The translations under genes were made by a program, and so were the position numbers. Below, in pieces: positions 18,727-28,755 of a DNA stretch of 64,000 bases. This DNA is from Cognatiluteimonas telluris (GTDB lineage Bacteria; Pseudomonadota; Gammaproteobacteria; Xanthomonadales; Xanthomonadaceae), in contig NZ_JAANOY010000004.1 in the NCBI RefSeq assembly GCF_011320095.1, positions 1-64,000 on the forward strand. The letters run 5' to 3'. The first letter of the stretch is position 1. Each line of letters begins with the position of its first letter. The notes beneath the pieces were generated by a model that was given only the letters and a program-made list of their open reading frames with translations, did not search any database and was not told where the DNA came from.

Positions 18727-19500
18727 ATGAATACGAATGACAGGCAGGACATGAACCGCGATCCGATCACGGGCGCGCCGGGTTCGCATCCCTTGGGCAC
18801 CGGCGTGGGCGCCGCGGGTGGCGTGCTGGCAGGCGCTGCGATCGGCTCGTTGTTCGGACCGATCGGCACGCTGGTCGGCGGCGCGATCGGTGCCGCCGGA
18901 GGTGGCGCGGCCGGCCATGCGGTCGCCGAGCGCGTGGATCCCACCGCCGAGTCCGAATACTGGCGCACCAATTACCAGACCCGCCCCTATTACCAGTCCA
19001 ACTTCAGTTACGACACCGACTACGCCCCGGCTTATGCCTACGGCAGCGACGCACGCAGCCGCTACGTCGGCCGGCAGTGGGACGACAGCCTGGAAAGCGA
19101 CCTGAAGACCGGCTGGGACAAGGTCAAGGCCAAGTCGCGGCTGACCTGGGACGAGGCGAAGAACGCCGTGCGCGACGCCTGGGATCGCGACGACCGCACC
19201 TATCGCACTTACGAGGCCACGGACCGCTATTACCGCGACCAGTACGCCAGCAGCGATCGTGATCCGCGCTTCGACTACGACACCGACTACAAGCCGGCGT
19301 ATCGCTACGGCACCTACGCCCGCGCCAACCAGCTCGACCGCACCTGGGACCCGAGCCTGGAGAGCGACCTCGAGCGCGGCTGGGACAGCGCCAAGGGCAC
19401 CTCGCGCATGGGCTGGCAGGAGGCCAAGGGCAGCGTCAAGGACGCGTGGCACGGCGTGGAGCGCGCGCTGCCAGGCGATGCTGACAACGACGGTCGCTGA
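18727..19500 (+). CDS. Glycine-zipper protein with duplicated YDTDY module
   Basis: The 257-residue protein begins with a polar stretch, then a glycine-zipper hydrophobic segment (24-65, repeated GxxxG). Two clear copies of a module of about 58 residues follow at 95-152 and 184-241. Each has YDTDYxPAYxYG, then SLESDL, GWD, a Lys/Ala-rich helix and VRDAW or VKDAW. The C-terminal helix of each unit resembles CsbD/YtxH-like stress proteins. A glycine zipper suggests membrane insertion or oligomerisation. There is no conventional signal peptide. ATG 18727 is preferred over the upstream start at 18640 because of the purine-rich GGGAGACGAA ahead of it. Function is unknown; a general-stress role is a guess from resemblance. 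Confidence 0.75.
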   Translation: MNTNDRQDMNRDPITGAPGSHPLGTGVGAAGGVLAGAAIGSLFGPIGTLVGGAIGAAGGGAAGHAVAERVDPTAESEYWRTNYQTRPYYQSNFSYDTDYAPAYAYGSDARSRYVGRQWDDSLESDLKTGWDKVKAKSRLTWDEAKNAVRDAWDRDDRTYRTYEATDRYYRDQYASSDRDPRFDYDTDYKPAYRYGTYARANQLDRTWDPSLESDLERGWDSAKGTSRMGWQEAKGSVKDAWHGVERALPGDADNDGR

Positions 19501-19515
19501 GATCGGGTGAGGAGC

Positions 19516-19544
19516 AAAAGAGGGCCTTCGGGCCCTCTTTTTTT
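19516..19544. terminator. Bidirectional terminator with UUCG tetraloop
   Basis: AAAAGAGGGCC (19516-19526) pairs perfectly with GGCCCTCTTTT (19531-19541) around a TTCG tetraloop, with T continuing to 19544. A-richness on the left makes it serviceable on the minus strand too. It separates the converging glycine-zipper gene and the borosin/GGDEF run. Confidence 0.92.
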
Positions 19545-19600
19545 CTATGGGCTGCCGTCTACGCGGCCGGGTCCTGGAGCAGGTGCCGGCCGGTCCCAGC

Positions 19601-21427
19601 TCAGGCCTTGGCCGTACCCATCGATGCCGACAGATTGGGGTCGACCGGCGGGGAAGGACCATGCCACGGTGCGGGTTCCCGCGTTTCGATCGGCACGTCG
19701 TGGGTGTAGGCCCTGACCCGGTTACGCCCTTCGCGCTTGGCGCGGTACAGCATCTGGTCGGCGTTTGAAATGAGCTTGTCCAGGTCGTAGCCCGAGCTCA
19801 TCGCGCAGCTGACGCCAAAACTCGCCGTGATCTTGAATGCATGCCCGCTGGGTGCGGAGGCAATGCGCGAGATCCGCACGCGGCAATCCTCCGCAATGCG
19901 CGTGGCGGCCTTGGCATCGCAACCCTGCAGCAGGATGGCGAATTCCTCACCACCCAGCCGACCGAAATAATCCATCCGTCGACACAGCTCCGAGCAGGTC
20001 TTCGCGACCTCCTTCAGCACCCAGTCGCCGGTGACGTGGCCGTAGGTGTCGTTGATCACCTTGAAGTGGTCGAGATCGAACATGATCAGCGACACCTGCT
20101 CGCCGACCTTCGCGCAATGGAGCAAGGTCTTCTCGGCCTGCGCGGTGAAATGATGTCGGTTGCAGATGCCGGTAAGCGCATCGGTCTGCGCCATGCGCCG
20201 CAGCGATACATGCAGGCGGCGGGTCTTGTAGCCCCAGTAGGCGATGACCAGCGCGAATATCGCAAAAAGCAGCATCAACTGGCGGGAGCTTTCCGCTTTC
20301 TGCTGGTCGACGCGCTGCTGCAGCTGCAGCAGGCTGTTCTGCCGGTTCAGCAATTCGATCTGCTGGTTCTTCTGCTGGTTTTCGTTGCGCACGATCTGGT
20401 AGGCGAGCTCCCGGGTCTTGACCTCGTTGAGGTAACCCTGCTCGGCCGCTGCATAGTGCTTGTAGAAGGCCAGCGCCGTTGAAAAATCCCGCCGCTTCTC
20501 CGCGACTTTGTAAAGGGTGGCATAAGCCGATACCAGCGGCGGGCTGTTGACGAGGCTGGGCGATTGGTTGATGGCGATCATTGCATTGCGTTCTGCCGCC
20601 TGCAGGTCGTCCTTGCCGAGCTGGATTTCGGCCATCAATGCGCGGATCTCAATGATGAGCCGCGAATAATGCGTCGAATTGATCTGCTCCAGGTGCGACT
20701 GGAGCATCGCAAGCGCCCTGTCGCCCTGCCCTTGGGCGATCCACTTCTTCGCCAGGGTGCCGCGGATCAGGTTGGCCATCATGACCTCGCCCTGGCTGAG
20801 GCACTGAAGGGCGGCGCTCTCCATGGGAGCATCGTCGTCCGGCAGGGTCCCCAGGTGCAGGAGCGAATCGAACTTCGTGTACGACGCGAAGCACGCGACC
20901 CGTCCTGCCAACGGCCTGTTGTTCAAGACAAGATCGGCGTAGTGGCTGCCCAGTGCATATTGGCCGAGCTGGTTGTACAGCGTGGCGGCGACGATGAGTC
21001 CCTGCTGGCGCAGGTTTGGATCGTCGACTTGGTCGATCAGCGCCAGGGTCTGGCCCAACTGCCGGAGGCCTTCGTTGAAACGGCCGTTCAGCGAGTAGGT
21101 ATTGACGACCAGGGTTCCCGCCTGGAATTTCAGGTTCACGTCGCTTGTTTCGGCAATGACCTGCTGTGCCAGCCGACTGCCTTCGTCGTACTTCCCCGAA
21201 TAAGCCAGGTCATAGGCCTGGAGGTACTGCATCTCCTGTCGCTGCCTTAGGGTCGCCTGGCCGGCTTGCCCGTTCAGCTCCGCCAGCAGCCGCTTGAACC
21301 TGGGCGGATCGGAGCTGCGGATCGCCTGCGCCTGCTTCAGAAGCGCTTCCACGGAGGCCGTGGAAGCACGACTGGAGAGCGGCGCGCACATGCACGCCAA
21401 CAGCAGCAATGGCAGGATCAGGCGCAC
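19601..21427 (-). CDS. Exported TPR-GGDEF diguanylate cyclase
   Basis: This 608-residue sensor-type enzyme has a signal peptide (RLILPLLLLACMCAPLSS) and about 320 residues of TPR-like helical repeats placed outside the membrane. A Gln-rich coiled coil (345-378), one transmembrane helix (about 380-397, LMLLFAIFALVIAYWGY) and a cytoplasmic GGDEF domain follow. The active-site motif is GGEEF near 491, with DALTG and FDLDHFKVINDTYGH intact, so it should make c-di-GMP. RRMD five residues before GGEEF is a normal inhibitory I-site. The start is GTG 21427, just 21 bases after the stop of precursor candidate A, with no gene on the other strand. It is probably the last gene of the borosin transcript, and a terminator follows at 19516-19544. 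Confidence 0.88.
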   Translation of the reverse strand: MRLILPLLLLACMCAPLSSRASTASVEALLKQAQAIRSSDPPRFKRLLAELNGQAGQATLRQRQEMQYLQAYDLAYSGKYDEGSRLAQQVIAETSDVNLKFQAGTLVVNTYSLNGRFNEGLRQLGQTLALIDQVDDPNLRQQGLIVAATLYNQLGQYALGSHYADLVLNNRPLAGRVACFASYTKFDSLLHLGTLPDDDAPMESAALQCLSQGEVMMANLIRGTLAKKWIAQGQGDRALAMLQSHLEQINSTHYSRLIIEIRALMAEIQLGKDDLQAAERNAMIAINQSPSLVNSPPLVSAYATLYKVAEKRRDFSTALAFYKHYAAAEQGYLNEVKTRELAYQIVRNENQQKNQQIELLNRQNSLLQLQQRVDQQKAESSRQLMLLFAIFALVIAYWGYKTRRLHVSLRRMAQTDALTGICNRHHFTAQAEKTLLHCAKVGEQVSLIMFDLDHFKVINDTYGHVTGDWVLKEVAKTCSELCRRMDYFGRLGGEEFAILLQGCDAKAATRIAEDCRVRISRIASAPSGHAFKITASFGVSCAMSSGYDLDKLISNADQMLYRAKREGRNRVRAYTHDVPIETREPAPWHGPSPPVDPNLSASMGTAKA

Positions 21428-21448
21428 TGCGTGGTCACCCGGTCGCGA

Positions 21449-21715
21449 TCAGGCGGCCAAGCAGAGCGATGCTTCGTCCGGCACGTCCTCGGCCGGCGAT
21501 TCCTCGTCGTCGAGAGGCTCTTCGTTCGGTGCCATGATGCCGAAGAACATGCTCGATCGGCCACCCAGCACCTGGGCGAGCGCCGCGTGGTCCCGGTTGA
21601 GCAGCGCGACGAGCTCCGCCCCCTGCACATCCAGGGTCCTGACGGCATCGCAATACTCGCTTTCGTGCATCGGGTTGCTCCCGATCGCCTCGAGAAATTG
21701 AATCGTACTCCGCAT
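21449..21715 (-). CDS. Candidate split-borosin precursor peptide A
   Basis: This 88-residue protein has no close named family. It aligns without gaps to its neighbour at 21861 (25 identical of 66 positions). Both start with a helical region (IQFLEAIGSNPM, EYCDAV), pass through ALLNRDHAALAQVLGG and reach a hydrophobic stretch (SSMFFGIMAP). This copy then has an acidic tail (NEEPLDDEESPAEDVPDEAS) ending LCLAA. The layout matches the split-borosin precursor SonA of Shewanella: a helical borosin-binding domain followed by a short hydrophobic core near the C-terminus. I infer MFFGIMA as the methylated core and the acidic tail as a follower or recognition element. ATG 21715 has AAGGGG upstream. It lies 145 bases after candidate B. 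Confidence 0.72.
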   Translation of the reverse strand: MRSTIQFLEAIGSNPMHESEYCDAVRTLDVQGAELVALLNRDHAALAQVLGGRSSMFFGIMAPNEEPLDDEESPAEDVPDEASLCLAA

Positions 21716-21860
21716 GACCATCCCCTTGATAGGTCGCTGGAAAGGCGCTTCCCAACGAAGACATTCCACGATCACCGGAGCGCTCCGGCATTGGCAGGCA
21801 GGCGTCGGATGGAAGGAACGATCAACGCGTTCCTTGTTCCGCTACCGCCCGCCGGCATTC

Positions 21861-22064
21861 CTATGCGTGCTCGTCCGCCGCCATGATGGCGAACACCATT
21901 GTCCGGGCACCATCGATTTGCGCACGCAGCGATACCTGGTCGCGATCCAGGAGTGCGCGCCGCTCTCCTTCCTCGAGATCGAAACACGCCAACGTGGCAG
22001 CGTATTCCATCGTCGTCATCGGAATTCGACCGATGGATTCCAGGCACCTGATGACGTCACTCAT
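21861..22064 (-). CDS. Candidate split-borosin precursor peptide B
   Basis: This 67-residue protein begins 11 bases after the methyltransferase stop, with a good ribosome site (GAGGGAAA). Predicted helices (VIRCLESIGRIPM, EYAATLACFDL, ERRALLDRDQVSLRAQIDG) form a binding-domain-like body. It ends in the hydrophobic TMVFAIMA followed by ADEHA. It is a clear paralogue of candidate A, sharing IxxLExIGxxPM, the LLxRD block, GxxxMxFxIMA and spacing throughout, but it lacks the acidic tail. That makes VFAIMA the likely site of backbone N-methylation. In known split borosins a small precursor of about 70 residues lies next to the methyltransferase, as here. No signal or protease site is recognisable, and maturation beyond methylation cannot be read. 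Confidence 0.78.
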   Translation of the reverse strand: MSDVIRCLESIGRIPMTTMEYAATLACFDLEEGERRALLDRDQVSLRAQIDGARTMVFAIMAADEHA

Positions 22065-22075
22065 GTTCGTTTCCC

Positions 22076-22894
22076 TCAGTGGACGGCCGGGGTTGCACCG
22101 GCCGATTGGAGGTTCCTGTCCAGCTGCGCGAGCCGCTCCAGCATTGCCTCGTTGCGTGCCATGCGCTTGGCGGGCGGAATCACCAGCGTCGTCTGCAAGC
22201 GCATGTCGGCCTCGATGATCCCAACCAGCGGCATTCGTTCCAACCGTGGCGCGTTGATCGGGAGGGTAGCAGCTTCATAGGCGACGACTTCATGCGAGGA
22301 CGGATAGTCTTCGGACAACAGCTCCACGAGTAGGCGACGGTAGTCCGGACCGGTGGCGAAGCGGCTGAGCGAGCGGTCGCCCGCGAGCCCGATCTGCCAT
22401 AGGACCAGGTAGGCCGTGGGGTCGATGCGGCGTTGGTAGAACATGAATTGGCTGGCCTCGTAGTGCTGGCAGCCGTAGGTTCCGGGGTCGACGCCCAGGT
22501 CGGCATAAAGGCAGTCCTCGGCCGAAATCCCCGGCTCCATGATGGCCTTGAAGCCTTCGGCCAGCGCGCCGGCCACAGCATGGTGGGGCACCTGCGCGAA
22601 TACCCCGGGGTGGCCGTAGAACACGCCGCAAACGCGCCGTCCGGCACGGACTTCGGCAAGCATAGCCTCGACCATCTCACGGTAGCCCTGCGTGCGTGGC
22701 CGGCCCTCGATGTAATAAGGCTGCAGGCTCCGCATGTCAGGTCGCATCTCCTTGACCCACAGCTCCACGATGGCGTCGGAGACCAGCGCGAACACGACGT
22801 CCGCCTGCTCGATATGACTGCGCGAGCGCGGGCTGAGGTGGGCGCCGAGCATCATGCCAAGCCCGACGCAGGCGAGGCTTCCCTGCTGAGTCAT
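22076..22894 (-). CDS. Split-borosin peptide backbone alpha-N-methyltransferase
   Basis: This 272-residue protein has the tetrapyrrole-methylase fold but belongs with borosin enzymes (SonM, and the methyltransferase half of OphMA) rather than with cobalamin or sirohaem biosynthesis. Landmarks in order are SLACVGLGMMLGAHLS, ADVVFALVSD, the RTQGYREMV segment supplying the Arg and Tyr of the active site, FYGHPGVFAQVPHHA, and EPGISAEDCLYADLGVDP. Then come CQHYEASQFMF and a closing VIPPAKRM. The SAEDCLxADLxxDP and GCQxxEAS blocks are typical of borosins. The enzyme would use SAM to methylate main-chain amides of a separate precursor. No core peptide is fused to its C-terminus (ends SAGATPAVH), and two small candidate precursors follow immediately. 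ATG 22894 is 29 bases after the GNAT stop. I saw no cobalamin or sirohaem gene in this window. Confidence 0.88.
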   Translation of the reverse strand: MTQQGSLACVGLGMMLGAHLSPRSRSHIEQADVVFALVSDAIVELWVKEMRPDMRSLQPYYIEGRPRTQGYREMVEAMLAEVRAGRRVCGVFYGHPGVFAQVPHHAVAGALAEGFKAIMEPGISAEDCLYADLGVDPGTYGCQHYEASQFMFYQRRIDPTAYLVLWQIGLAGDRSLSRFATGPDYRRLLVELLSEDYPSSHEVVAYEAATLPINAPRLERMPLVGIIEADMRLQTTLVIPPAKRMARNEAMLERLAQLDRNLQSAGATPAVH

Positions 22895-22923
22895 CGATCT
22901 ACCCCGGTGTGAAGGCCGTGACT

Positions 22924-23511
22924 TTATCCGCTGGCTGCGGCTTCCGCCATTGCAGGGCCCGGCTCCGGCGCCCGCCAGCGGCTTCGCGGCAGTTCCCACT
23001 CGCCTCCTTGCGGACGCTCGGGCGTTGGCGGCAGGGCGGTGTAACCCAGCCGCGTCATCATCCGGATCACGGCCGGGTTGTCGACGACCGACTGGCGGGC
23101 GCAGATCGACTGCAGCCCGAATGCGGAGAAGGCATGGTCGGCCATGCCCTGCATCGCTTCGCTGCCGATGCCGCGCCCATGCGCGGGGGCCACCAGCATG
23201 ACGCCGATCTCGGGGCGGTCTCCCGATCCGATCAGGCCCAGCAGCCCGATCGCCGCGCCGCCCTGCTTGCCATGGATGATCCAGCGTTGCGGCCGTGGCG
23301 ACTGATTGCGCAAGGCGACCTCGAAACTACGCTGAGCTGCTTCCATCGAGAGCGGCGGCGCGATGAAGCGCATGAGCTCGGCAGTGGTGTAGAGCTGGCA
23401 ATACAGCGCCGCATCGGAGCCATCGAGCGGCCGCATGCGCAGCCTCGCGGTCTCGAACTCGTCCGCAACACGGTGCACGCCCGCAATGGCAGCCACTTCA
23501 TGGGTCCTCAC
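22924..23511 (-). CDS. GNAT family N-acetyltransferase (RimJ/RimL-like)
   Basis: The 195-residue protein has the GNAT fold as in RimJ/RimL-type enzymes: FETARLRMRPL at the start, then IGLLGLIG, EIGVMLVAPAHGRGIGSEAM (the acetyl-CoA-binding motif A with a GRGIGSE pyrophosphate loop) and a VDNPAVIRMMTRLGY closing motif. Such enzymes acetylate N-termini, amino groups of small molecules or peptides. It starts at GTG 23511, overlapping the stop of the upstream diguanylate cyclase by four bases, and ends 29 bases before the borosin methyltransferase. It could therefore be an accessory peptide-modifying enzyme of that system, but it could equally be unrelated. An ATG at 23500 is out of frame. Confidence 0.85.
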   Translation of the reverse strand: MRTHEVAAIAGVHRVADEFETARLRMRPLDGSDAALYCQLYTTAELMRFIAPPLSMEAAQRSFEVALRNQSPRPQRWIIHGKQGGAAIGLLGLIGSGDRPEIGVMLVAPAHGRGIGSEAMQGMADHAFSAFGLQSICARQSVVDNPAVIRMMTRLGYTALPPTPERPQGGEWELPRSRWRAPEPGPAMAEAAASG

Positions 23512-25208
23512 TCGCCCTCCTCGGCCCGAACCACCCGGTTGCGCCCCGCCGCCTTGGCCGCATACATCGCCGCGTCCGCGCGGTGGATCAGATCGGCCGT
23601 GGACTCGTTGGGTCGCAGCGTGGCCACGCCGATGCTGACCGTCAGCCCGGTCACGGCGCCGCCCCGCGCGCCCATGGCCTGCACCTGCCGGCGCAGCCGC
23701 TCGGCGACCTGCATGGCGCGCGGGCCGTCGGTGCCGGGCAGCGAGACGACGAACTCCTCGCCACCATAGCGGCCGATCTGCTCGTGGTCGCGCAGCACGC
23801 GCCCCATCCATTGCGCCAGCGACTGCAACGCGGCATCGCCGGCTTCGTGCCCGTGCACGTCGTTGAGCTGCTTGAACTTGTCCAGGTCCAGGAACAGCAA
23901 CGACAGCGGGCGGTCGAAGCGGCGCGCCGACTCCTCCAGCTGGGCCAGGCGGTCGCTCCAGGCGCGGCGGTTCCAGACGCCGGTGAGTGGGTCGATGTCG
24001 GCCAGACGACGTGCGGCGTCGCGGTCCCGGCGCAGGGCCAGGCTGCGGTCGGCCAGGCCCAGCGACAGCACCACGGCGTCGAAGGCGCCCGCGGCGAGCG
24101 CGGCGTCGCCGCTGCCGGTCCATCCGGCAAGCAGCCCGTACAGCTGCAGGCTGCCGAGCACGGTCACCGCCAGCAGCGGAACCCAGCCCGCCAGGTAGAA
24201 CAACGCATAGCGCGAACCGCGGCATGCGGCCACGATGGCCACGCCCACGATCAGCGGGCCGCCGAGGATCAGCACCGGATTGACCAGCGCACGCACCAGC
24301 GGCGCGGCGACCGGCAGCATGCCGGCCAGCGACAACACCGCGGTACCCGCCGCATAGCCGACCAGCAGGCGACGTCCGCCCGGCGCATGGCGGCGCAGGT
24401 GCGCGAAGCGGTCGAGGAACAGGATCGCGAACACCACCGACACCGCCGTCGCCAGCCGCCCCCACTCACGCGGCGCGGCGGCGATCCAGTCCCAGCCCAG
24501 CGGGTCGTAGGCGAAGCCGCACTGGATCGACAGGATCAGCGCATAGGCCAGCACGAACACCGCATAGAAGGCGAACGTCGCGTCGCGCAGGTCGAAGGCG
24601 AACACCAGCGCCATCAGCGCCATCGCCGCCATCACCGCCAGGCAGGCCGCGGCGAAGGCCAGCCACCGTGCGTCGTCGCGCAGATAGCCATCCACCGGTT
24701 CGACCGCGAAGCTCATGGGCGCGGCGATCACGCCGCCGGAATGGATTTCCAGCAACAGGGGCCCGCCATCGCGCGGCAGGGCCGGCAGCGGGAACACCAG
24801 GCTGTCGTGCATCGGCCAGGCATCGGCGGCGTTCGCACCCAGGCGCGCCGTGCGTGGCATCGCGCCCGGCGCGTGCAGAGAGACGGCCTGCAGGCCGGGC
24901 GACCGCACCTCGAGCACGTACGCGCCGGTGGGCCACTGGCCACGTGCGGGCCGGAGCGAAACCCAACTGCCGCGGGCATCGGCGAAGACATGCAGCTGCT
25001 GCGGATCGAAGGCCTGGCCCCAGGACGCGATGACCTGCGTGTCGGGCGGCTGCGCGCTCCACCGCCCCTGCAACGCCAGGCCCGGTCCTTCCGCGGCGCG
25101 ACCCACGGGCGCGAGCACGACCCACGCCAACACCACGCACAGCGCTGCCGTGGCCAGGCGAAGCCAGTGGCGCCCGCCGGACCGGCCGGTATGTGAAGTC
25201 CCCGTCAC
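23508..25208 (-). CDS. 7TM (DISM-like) diguanylate cyclase
   Basis: The 566-residue product starts with a signal peptide (LRLATAALCVVLAWVVLAPVGRA). It has an extracytoplasmic beta-rich domain of the 7TMR-DISMED type (about 45-185), seven hydrophobic helices (about 190-390) and a cytoplasmic GGDEF domain with DPLTGVWNRRAW, FLDLDKFKQLNDVHGH and GGEEF near 480. It should make c-di-GMP in response to an external, possibly carbohydrate, ligand. The inhibitory-site position reads RDHE rather than RxxD, so product feedback may be weakened. I choose GTG 25208 (VTGTSHTGR); the longer open frame upstream overlaps the GIY-YIG gene region and lacks support. Its stop is fused with the GNAT start (GTGA). 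Confidence 0.87.
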   Translation of the reverse strand: MTGTSHTGRSGGRHWLRLATAALCVVLAWVVLAPVGRAAEGPGLALQGRWSAQPPDTQVIASWGQAFDPQQLHVFADARGSWVSLRPARGQWPTGAYVLEVRSPGLQAVSLHAPGAMPRTARLGANAADAWPMHDSLVFPLPALPRDGGPLLLEIHSGGVIAAPMSFAVEPVDGYLRDDARWLAFAAACLAVMAAMALMALVFAFDLRDATFAFYAVFVLAYALILSIQCGFAYDPLGWDWIAAAPREWGRLATAVSVVFAILFLDRFAHLRRHAPGGRRLLVGYAAGTAVLSLAGMLPVAAPLVRALVNPVLILGGPLIVGVAIVAACRGSRYALFYLAGWVPLLAVTVLGSLQLYGLLAGWTGSGDAALAAGAFDAVVLSLGLADRSLALRRDRDAARRLADIDPLTGVWNRRAWSDRLAQLEESARRFDRPLSLLFLDLDKFKQLNDVHGHEAGDAALQSLAQWMGRVLRDHEQIGRYGGEEFVVSLPGTDGPRAMQVAERLRRQVQAMGARGGAVTGLTVSIGVATLRPNESTADLIHRADAAMYAAKAAGRNRVVRAEEGE

Positions 25209-25272
25209 CGGGCAAGGGTACCGGCGTCGGATGGCGCGTGGCCACCAGGCGCGACGATTCACGGGCCGTGCG

Positions 25273-25884
25273 TTAGCGCCGTCGGTACCAGGCGAGGACT
25301 TCCGGCGACAGCCAGGCCTCCAGGTCGATGTCGAGCGCGGCATAGCCGTCCAGCGCATCGCGCACTTGGCGCGCGACGGGCGACGGGGCCGTGCCCGTCG
25401 CCGCGGAATCGAAGTCGTCCGCCGACAGCGCGGCAAGCGTCCACGCGAACAGGCGGTCGCTGCGTTCGAGCAGTTGCTTCCGCGCCCACCGCCGCAGCGG
25501 CGCATGGAGGACGTAGCCACCGGCGGCGAGCGTGCCTGCGGCCTGGTTTAGGAGGTCGTAGGCGCCCCGATACCACTCCGTGTGCCCTGCCGCCGCACGC
25601 CGGATCACCAGCGGCGCGGGGGCATTGTGTTCGGCGATGGCATGGGCCAGGCCAAGTTCCAGGTCGCGGGCGTCACGAACGGTTTCGGCCTCGACCAGGA
25701 ACGCGCGCTCCAGGTCGAAGAATCCGTGCCAGCGCGGGTGCAATGCCTGCATCCGGTCGAGCGGATCGCGCGAGAAGCCGAGCTTGAGGATGTCCTCGTA
25801 CGCGCAGGGCAGCACATACAGGTAGCAGCGCCCGCGGCTGGGCCCACGATTGCCGGGTTCGCGCGGGTCGATGCGGCCAGCCAT
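25273..25884 (-). CDS. GIY-YIG-like nuclease-family protein
   Basis: The 203-residue protein contains near its start CYLYVLPCAYEDILKLGFSRDP (20-41), followed by a conserved Arg (DRMQALHPR). This matches the two-strand core of T5orf172/MUG113-type GIY-YIG domains (YLYVL...KLGFS plus Arg), then a Glu-rich helix (DARDLELGLAHAI). The remainder is helical, with WYRGAYDLL and a Trp-rich C-terminus. It is probably a nucleic-acid nuclease or a binding protein derived from one; catalytic competence is not certain because the first strand is YVL rather than GIY. It lies 64 bases upstream of the diguanylate cyclase start on the same strand and may share its transcript, but I see no functional link. Confidence 0.65.
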   Translation of the reverse strand: MAGRIDPREPGNRGPSRGRCYLYVLPCAYEDILKLGFSRDPLDRMQALHPRWHGFFDLERAFLVEAETVRDARDLELGLAHAIAEHNAPAPLVIRRAAAGHTEWYRGAYDLLNQAAGTLAAGGYVLHAPLRRWARKQLLERSDRLFAWTLAALSADDFDSAATGTAPSPVARQVRDALDGYAALDIDLEAWLSPEVLAWYRRR

Positions 25885-25979
25885 GCCTGCAGTTTAAATC
25901 GCGGCCCCAACCAAGCTTCGCGAAGGCCCGCTGCCGACCTCACCCGGATTCACGCGCCGTCTGGCTACGCTTGCCGCAG

Positions 25980-26846
25980 ATGAAAATCGCGACCTTCAAC
26001 GTCAACGGCATCCGCTCGCGACTGGCTTCGTTGCTGCAGTGGCTGGATCGCGAGCAGCCCGACGTCGCCTGCCTGCAGGAGCTGAAGGCGCCCGATGATG
26101 CCTTCCCCATCGACGCCATCCGCGCCGCGGGGTACGGCGCGCTGTGGCATGGGCAGCGATCCTGGAACGGGGTGGCGATCCTCGCGCGCGGTGCCGAGCC
26201 GGTCGAAAGCCGGCGCGGGCTGCCTGGCGATCGCAGCGACGTGCAGAGCCGGTATCTGGAAGCCGCCGTCGATGGCGTCATCGTCGGTTGCCTGTACCTG
26301 CCCAACGGCAATCCGCAGCCCGGACCCAAGTTCGACTACAAGCTCGCCTGGTTCGAGCGGCTGATCCGGCATGCCGCGAAGCTCTACGACAGCGGCCATC
26401 CGGTCGTGCTGGCGGGCGATTACAACGTCGTGCCCACCGATGAGCTGGACATCTACAACCCGCGCTCCTGGCGCAAGGACGCACTGCTGCAGCCGGAGAG
26501 CCGGGAATGCTACGCACGCCTGCTCGACCAGGGCTGGGTCGATTCGCTGCGCGTGGCCCATCCGGACGAAAAGATCTTCACCTTTTGGGACTACTTCCGT
26601 CGCCATTGGGAAACCAACTCCGGCCTGCGCATCGATCACCTGCTGCTCAACGCCGAGTTGGCGCCTCGACTGCGTTCAGCCGGCGTCGACCGCTGGGTAC
26701 GCGATCTTCCCGGCGCCAGCGACCACGCACCGACCTGGATCGTGCTCGACAGTCCGCGTGCGAAAAAGAACAGCGCAAGCAAACGTAACTCGAAGGCCGG
26801 CAAGACTGTCGCGCCAAAGCGCCCCAGGCGGACGCGGACCGCGTAA
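25980..26846 (+). CDS. xthA: Exodeoxyribonuclease III
   Basis: This apurinic/apyrimidinic endonuclease and 3'-5' exonuclease of base excision repair has 288 residues. The catalytic set is complete: Asn7 in ATFNVNGIR, Glu34 in CLQELK, Tyr106 in CLYLPNGN, Asp147 and Asn149 in AGDYNVVP, and ASDHAP near 254. The segment WDYFRRHWETNSGLRIDHLL is the substrate-facing loop of exonuclease III. ATG 25980 gives the family start MKIATFNV; TTG 25971 would add three residues. The C-terminus carries an unusual Lys/Arg/Ser-rich tail of about 30 residues (SASKRNSKAGKTVAPKRPRR) beyond the usual end, likely extra DNA contact. Confidence 0.95.
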   Translation: MKIATFNVNGIRSRLASLLQWLDREQPDVACLQELKAPDDAFPIDAIRAAGYGALWHGQRSWNGVAILARGAEPVESRRGLPGDRSDVQSRYLEAAVDGVIVGCLYLPNGNPQPGPKFDYKLAWFERLIRHAAKLYDSGHPVVLAGDYNVVPTDELDIYNPRSWRKDALLQPESRECYARLLDQGWVDSLRVAHPDEKIFTFWDYFRRHWETNSGLRIDHLLLNAELAPRLRSAGVDRWVRDLPGASDHAPTWIVLDSPRAKKNSASKRNSKAGKTVAPKRPRRTRTA

Positions 26847-27594: not shown

Positions 27595-28632
<1,038 letters not shown>

Positions 28633-28755
28633 GCCTGTTCCTGTCGTTGAACGCCGATGCACCGGCGGCGGGTGTCGTCTCGCCGGGTGGCGCGCTCGCG
28701 TCCTGCGCATTCGCATGCCTGCGTCGTGCCGTCGCGGCCAATCGTCCCGCGTTGG

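Follow-up and report, generated by a model that had tools for sequence, protein, structure and literature searches.

A 64,000-nucleotide stretch of the Cognatiluteimonas telluris genome (contig NZ_JAANOY010000004.1), here called the window, carries on its minus strand a gene set encoding, in this order, a GNAT acetyltransferase, an N-methyltransferase, two small precursors, and a protein combining tetratricopeptide repeats (TPR) with a GGDEF domain (Table 1). To judge by sequence, the enzyme is almost certainly a SonM-type peptide backbone N-methyltransferase, and the locus a type IV (split) borosin. We also lean, by a modest degree, towards a reading in which the set is a split borosin operon tied to a signal receptor whose ligand is the methylated peptide. 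The basis for the receptor reading is that the TPR-bearing protein, here called the sensor, stays with the enzyme through changes of gene order, duplications, and swaps of its output domain. Its main value lies in this recurrent receptor-like partner with a swappable output, which would give type IV borosins a specific and testable function.

Table 1. Features of the borosin locus and adjoining genes in the window
Feature	Position	Strand	Basis
Symmetric hairpin, candidate terminator	19516-19541		pattern scan; about 60 bases past the GGDEF stop
Predicted TPR-sensor diguanylate cyclase, 608 aa	19601-21427	-	PF00990, E 9.2e-46; model with predicted local distance difference test (pLDDT) 89.5
Precursor 2, 88 aa, acidic tail	21449-21715	-	precursor profile; AlphaFold2 model
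Precursor 2 predicted core MFFGIMAPNEEP	21515-21550	-	alignment columns 56-67
Precursor 1, 67 aa	21861-22064	-	paralogue of precursor 2; precursor profile
Precursor 1 predicted core and C-terminus MVFAIMAADEHA	21864-21899	-	aligned core columns, 60 precursors
Putative type IV (split) borosin alpha-N-methyltransferase, 272 aa	22076-22894	-	SonM/OphMA matches, PF00590
GNAT acetyltransferase, likely GTG start	22924-23496	-	PF13302, E 6.1e-22
7TMR-DISM GGDEF protein, start uncertain	23508-25244	-	PF07695, E 5e-20; PF00990, E 4.3e-43

In a phmmer search of PDB, the best match of the methyltransferase is SonM (E 1.4e-79), and the fungal OphMA is matched as well (E about 5e-47). The SonM match spans residues 5-256, and direct alignment gives 129 identities over 255 SonM residues. 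Ten positions, chosen among those discussed in the SonM paper (PMC8429565), were checked: eight are retained (Y58, R67, Y71, Y93, F99, E146, W166, L176) and two are changed (Q178 to R and I234 to Q). Y58, R67, Y71, and Y93 are each retained in 168 of 170 aligned methyltransferases. The blocks YGHPGVF, SAEDCLYADLGVDP, and CQHYEASQF, from which a first-pass annotation had recognised a borosin-type enzyme, are all present and align with the equivalent SonM blocks; its remark that no core is fused to the C-terminus agrees with the protein length and the extent of the SonM match. PF00590 (Pfam, E 1.8e-18) is common to this enzyme kind and to tetrapyrrole methylases, and on that ground the enzyme could be a tetrapyrrole or corrin methylase with unrelated small open reading frames (ORFs) beside it. 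However, the best corrin enzyme in the same search, precorrin-2 methylase, reaches only E 0.012, in an NCBIfam scan all matches fall far under the cut-offs and no corrin model reaches one, and the enzyme is present in all 36 genomes with a precursor match among 100 relatives. We regard this explanation as scarcely credible. A placement closer to CbiF/CobA, which the first-pass annotation had named as the outcome that would overturn its claim, was looked for; SonM and OphMA score far better than corrin enzymes, and the tetrapyrrole identity is refuted as far as sequence allows.

The two small proteins directly after the enzyme are paralogous, 38% identical over 65 residues without gaps (E 8e-14), as had been noted earlier from correctly placed ORFs. 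Precursor 1 starts 11 bases past the methyltransferase stop and precursor 2 ends 21 bases ahead of the TPR-GGDEF gene; an alternative upstream GTG start would extend precursor 2 to 21775. Since relatives of both adjoin a methyltransferase in other genomes, neither is a chance ORF. By eye, precursor 1 resembles a short-tailed precursor of the sister species (L031:9150-9353; L and G numbers are our labels for loci and genomes). We built a profile (A1) from 60 precursors, comprised of the two of the window and 58 of 74 listed ones, the remainder being omitted by hand. It matches precursor 1 at E 9.1e-17 and precursor 2 at E 6.5e-23, both being themselves rows of the profile. Searched against PDB, it recovers the sequences of seven SonA chains (E 0.0018-0.0054), with alignments that cover most of the borosin binding domain. 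In the AlphaFold2 model of precursor 2, helices at residues 3-13, 18-27, 33-39, and 43-49 are confident, and the core and tail have lower confidence; 16 of 42 Foldseek matches of this model are borosin chains. Several results temper the assignment. The top PDB row of the profile, above SonA, is a repeat beta-propeller (E 0.001, no single stretch passing), and the four rows besides SonA are three repeat beta-propellers and a designed cage. Every Foldseek match has E >1, and PDB searches with each precursor as a single sequence recovered weak, unrelated matches and not SonA. Following the profile matches, we assign a predicted SonA-like binding-domain leader to both precursors. Together with the SonM-type enzyme, they support the earlier suggestion of a split borosin with separate precursors.

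Across the 60 precursors, the core columns are mainly hydrophobic, followed by P or A twice and then by acidic residues. Column 58 is Cys in 45 of 60 precursors and Phe in window precursor 2; thirteen have no Cys in columns 50-65, including both window precursors and all three of L031. One relative, L109 (same genome as L027), has a precursor with four tandem cores, SCLVFTPEE, YFCWVATPEE, YFCAVNTPEL, and YFCGVLTPEE, which supports the core assignment. Backbone N-methylation of the precursor cores is predicted. A double-glycine leader processed by a C39 peptidase was considered and rejected: although precursor 2 reads GG ahead of RSS, the corresponding family columns are mixed (G/D/Q, then A/G/V). 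By eye, five Luteimonas-type loci (L062, L065, L068, L072, L073) retain the core (e.g. MACLIMTPDGGETEP) in small ORFs with a largely degenerate leader; these lie between the enzyme and the GGDEF gene and are missed by the profile. L102 also has a candidate precursor ORF, L053 has a core that looks disrupted or frame-shifted, L137 yields only a very weak precursor match (2e-3), and no precursor was seen in L090, where the stretch ends soon after. A long lysine-rich tail follows the acidic segment in L046:9426-9854 (a Steroidobacter metagenome-assembled genome) and L054:9470-9898 (Povalibacter).

The protein encoded downstream of the precursors has an N-terminal hydrophobic segment, TPR at about residues 22-345, a membrane helix at about 377-402, and GGDEF at 413-570. 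The GGDEF active-site motif reads GGEEF, with an upstream RRMD (RxxD), and with this motif the protein is a predicted diguanylate cyclase. At E up to 1, Pfam finds only GGDEF and TPR_19 (0.33).

To follow the sensor across genomes, we used a sensor-region profile built from fetched loci (A2, 31 hand-picked TPR-GGDEF proteins), and counted a sensor as beside an enzyme when it lay on the same strand within 3.5 kb. The named set comprises 76 loci from Lysobacter, Luteimonas, Pseudoxanthomonas, Vulcaniibacterium, Silanimonas, Dyella, Rheinheimera, Shewanella, Steroidobacter, Alkalimonas, and others; it was drawn with six peptide patterns from the window enzyme and is therefore biased to close relatives. 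Here the sensor is beside the enzyme in 75 of 76 cases, the exception (L045) ending at a contig edge. The first-pass annotation had tied the locus to genes of cyclic di-GMP (c-di-GMP) signalling; the GGDEF gene does adjoin, and the tie is not merely local, as the gene belongs to the set in most related loci. In a second set, 40 regions of one other family hand-chosen from 61 matches, the sensor is beside 42 of 44 enzymes, L153 and L160 being the misses; in L160 it is present on the opposite strand. The second set shares loci with the named one (L148/L070, L149/L058, L156/L076, L159/L094), so that the sets are not additive. All 22 enzymes of 22 hand-chosen Shewanella regions have the sensor beside them (the contig of L197 ends inside the sensor gene, and the GGDEF of L190 is split over two frames), as do 19 of 28 in a mixed set. 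By profile, a precursor accompanies 70 of 76 enzymes in the named set, 17 of 22 in Shewanella, and 12 of 28 in the mixed set.

The association also appears in the reverse direction. Among 100 relatives, 43 of 53 sensor matches lie within 6 kb of an enzyme match. In single-sequence searches of the same genomes, both proteins occur in 37, only the enzyme in seven, only the sensor in two, and neither in 54; in five of the seven enzyme-only genomes (G011, G021, G035, G067, G088) the sensor was then found by profile. The window genome has one sensor copy by single-sequence search and 33 GGDEF family matches; hence it is the sensor, and not GGDEF at large, that accompanies the enzyme.

The gene set stays intact while its order shifts. 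Apart from the usual layout (enzyme-precursor-sensor), the nearest sensor lies upstream of the enzyme in 10 of 154 pairs, short matches having been omitted from the pair analysis, and the order precursor-sensor-enzyme occurs. Tandems of precursor-GGDEF-precursor-GGDEF are found in Rheinheimera and similar genomes (L049-L051, L070, L105) and in Dyella (L078). In L118 a precursor and a sensor form a pair with no enzyme next to them; the enzyme of that genome lies about 87 kb away, in a locus (L119) with a precursor and sensor of its own. An apparent second pair, L120 in G086, starts with a precursor about 300 bases from a contig end, and the single G086 enzyme is on another contig. The sensor nearest to the enzyme has a histidine kinase as its output in 15 loci; L127, with both GGDEF-bearing and kinase-bearing sensors, is outside this count. 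Pfam confirms HisKA and HATPase in all six kinase loci checked, with receiver domains in five. The sensor regions of L083 and L092 closely resemble the GGDEF type (E about 1e-99). Enzyme and sensor distances are correlated (r 0.76, uncorrected for species relatedness), which we do not use as evidence.

The TPR region of the model aligns with TPR superhelices. In the structural comparison, ten of 50 rows fall on the TPR part, and pheromone receptors make up seven of the ten (four Rap Phi3T entries, the Rap-CSF complex 4gyo, RapF, and NprR), with Z 23.5-25.1 over 303-316 residues and a root-mean-square deviation of 4.0-4.6. This resemblance of the modelled domain to the Rap/NprR peptide receptors is suggestive only. 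Simple hydropathy thresholds give 162 of 186 sensors a hydrophobic N-terminal segment together with a membrane helix ahead of the output, and 184 of them the helix, so the TPR domain probably lies outside the inner membrane. A cytoplasmic precursor would then need cutting and export to reach it. All 137 GGDEF-linked sensors share Cys179 and Cys209 of the window sensor, and only 2 of 16 kinase-linked sensors have Cys at each of the two places; being kept or lost together, the two residues would fit a disulfide and hence an oxidising compartment.

A number of observations weigh against the receptor reading. The sensor link is not universal to split borosins: five distant enzymes of the mixed set (L129-L133, 32-41% identity) have no sensor nearby, and the same holds for the related enzymes L109, L111, L113, and L153, and for L114, which stops at a contig end. 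In the second set, the profile found a precursor for only 23 of 44 enzymes. The p value of the co-occurrence ignores phylogeny. Outside L083 and L092, the sensors of the kinase loci match less well (about 1e-18 to 1e-49), and their match may in part reflect generic TPR similarity; moreover, no precursor was found in L169-L178, L180, and L181 by profile, small ORFs there being unexamined. Precursor and sensor numbers are not 1:1 (2:1 in the window, 3:1 in L031, and 1:2 in L044, L057, and L060). MalT (Z 23.7) and APPBP2 (24.0, 23.4) score like Rap, and since TPR solenoids are alike, the fold is no proof of peptide binding. In 13 of 186 sensors there is an additional hydrophobic stretch within the TPR part. 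Finally, the described locus genes include no exporter or protease. Two of the distant loci, L131 and L132, look by eye like a different borosin neighbourhood, with a small ORF upstream of the enzyme (L131:5727-5942, L132:3486-3737) and a transporter-like membrane ORF downstream.

If the receptor reading holds, the enzyme would bind the leader of each precursor and methylate backbone amides in the core. A protease from outside the gene set would free the core; in work by Lee from 2024, shewasin A is said to be a protease of a borosin precursor. The GNAT protein may acetylate the freed N-terminus. N-methylated hydrophobic peptides can cross membranes passively, and a small peptide of this kind could reach the periplasm in the same way, its crossing favoured by backbone N-methylation. 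There it would bind the TPR domain and alter GGDEF activity, and with it the c-di-GMP level, the whole being a modified-peptide analogue of Rap/Phr-type signalling. That the peptide, or the precursor, is the ligand of the TPR receptor we infer with evenly balanced confidence. More tentatively, and at somewhat less than an even chance, the split borosins of this gammaproteobacterial clade may be backbone-N-methylated pheromones that leave the cell without an exporter and act through periplasmic Rap-like TPR receptors to set c-di-GMP or a kinase/phosphorelay output.

Two other explanations were weighed. The methylated precursor might act uncleaved inside the cell, for instance in partnership with the enzyme or some other protein, with no free peptide signal. 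In its favour, the described genes include no protease or exporter, and SonM is inhibited by the isolated SonA binding domain (Ki near 4 micromolar), so that whole-protein complexes form (PMC8429565). However, the TPR domain is predicted to lie outside the cytoplasm and so apart from a precursor that is not exported, and the five Luteimonas-type loci keep the core while the leader appears degenerate. We consider an uncleaved effector improbable. The borosin could also be an outward-acting product (antibiotic, metal-binding, or surface-active), the TPR-GGDEF protein only coupling its production to c-di-GMP via another cue. The fungal borosin omphalotin A is nematocidal (PMC11285071), and L109 (4851-5336, 6531-8681) combines the enzyme and the four-core precursor with a C39-peptidase ATP-binding cassette (ABC) exporter, as for a secreted product. 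In L109, this exporter lies past the enzyme and the 14 kb fetched contain no TPR-GGDEF gene; this is possibly a secreted multi-core variant. Against an outward product, the sensor follows both precursor and enzyme through the order changes, duplications, and output swaps described above, and L118 is a pair that lacks the enzyme; such behaviour is more to be expected of a ligand and its receptor than of a general regulator. We rate this explanation as rather unlikely, though well above the uncleaved effector.

Among 100 related genomes (own included), 44 have the enzyme, 36 the precursor, and 39 the sensor part of the downstream GGDEF protein; the enzyme is present in 37 of these 39. Within the genus, two of nine genomes have the enzyme (G000 and G008, the locus of the latter being L031). 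Class-wide it is uncommon: at a cut-off of E 1e-20, it occurs in nine of 369 genomes, counting the window genome itself. Precursor multiplicity recurs: the sister species L031 has three precursors, and other loci have two. Hence, the first-pass view of a locus uncommon in Xanthomonadaceae, or remarkable for its two precursors, is not supported, and we dropped the two-precursor state as a novelty. Two methyltransferase genes lie close together in L143, L161, and L169, and in L143 three consecutive GNAT genes follow past the second.

The GNAT gene just upstream of the enzyme, unmentioned in the first-pass annotation, is a recurrent fourth gene of the borosin set. Counting only the first enzyme of each locus, 69 of 104 loci have a gene of this GNAT family no more than 1.5 kb from the enzyme and on its strand; per enzyme, the counts are 63 of 76 in the named set, 17 of 44 in the second, 7 of 22 in Shewanella, and 6 of 28 in the mixed set. 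The 7TMR-DISM GGDEF gene, which ends 11 bases before the GNAT start, is possibly co-transcribed with it, and a GGDEF gene is found upstream of the enzyme in L031 too. The hairpin scan is weak (three sites in the region and a mean of 2.6 in shuffles), and no RNA element in 19000-26500 matched Rfam at gathering score. Anti-phage defence was rejected as a function, as three locus proteins gave no PADLOC match. Further upstream, 25971-26846 (plus strand) and 27595-28716 (minus strand) look by eye like exonuclease III-like and luciferase-like monooxygenase-like genes, i.e. ordinary neighbours.

The closest known system is SonM-SonA of Shewanella oneidensis (PDB 7ltc; PMC8429565), with which the window locus shares the enzyme family, a separate precursor with a binding-domain leader, and a conserved active site. 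Unlike it, the window locus has two precursors, a GNAT gene, and cores MVFAIMA and MFFGIMAP in place of the SonA core. Of 60 genomes from the genus to which G583 (Shewanella salipaludis) belongs, 52 have a SonM match. The enzymes of L185 and L186 share 99% and 98% identity with SonM, and each precedes a SonA-like precursor (profile E 3e-3) and a TPR-GGDEF gene; seven of the examined genomes have an additional copy of the set that includes a GNAT gene (L198-L204). It thus seems that the published type IV example belongs to the same gene set, as shown for close SonM orthologues and not claimed for MR-1 itself, and the function hypothesis probably extends to S. oneidensis. As of the 2021 SonM-SonA paper, no type IV pathway had yet been linked to a final natural product (PMC8429565). 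Some GGDEF link is in print, as a figure legend on borosin architectures lists a "GGDEF-sequence-containing domain" (PMC11395268); the accessible part of that paper has nothing on the function of the domain, and we claim no priority for the GGDEF neighbourhood. In the borosin literature searched for diguanylate/GGDEF links, several key papers being outside that search, we found no statement of the receptor idea.

The fungal fused borosins (OphMA, dbOphM) have a homologous methyltransferase. By contrast, the window enzyme has no fused clasp or core, and its cores are on separate proteins.

Like the RRNPP systems (Rap/Phr, NprR), the window locus encodes a receptor-like TPR fold beside a small peptide-precursor gene; the matches to Rap and NprR are structural, and the Pfam matches at E up to 1 include no Rap, NprR, or PlcR family. 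If the receptor reading is right, a ribosomal N-methylated peptide joins the inputs of c-di-GMP signalling. On the more tentative pheromone reading, Gram-negatives would have an RRNPP-like form of peptide sensing with a ribosomally synthesized and post-translationally modified peptide as the signal, and two or three precursors per operon would be parallel signals to one receptor. Unlike in RRNPP systems, the receptor-like protein is predicted to be membrane-anchored with the TPR outside, its output is GGDEF or a histidine kinase, and the precursor carries a SonA-like leader, with backbone N-methylation predicted.
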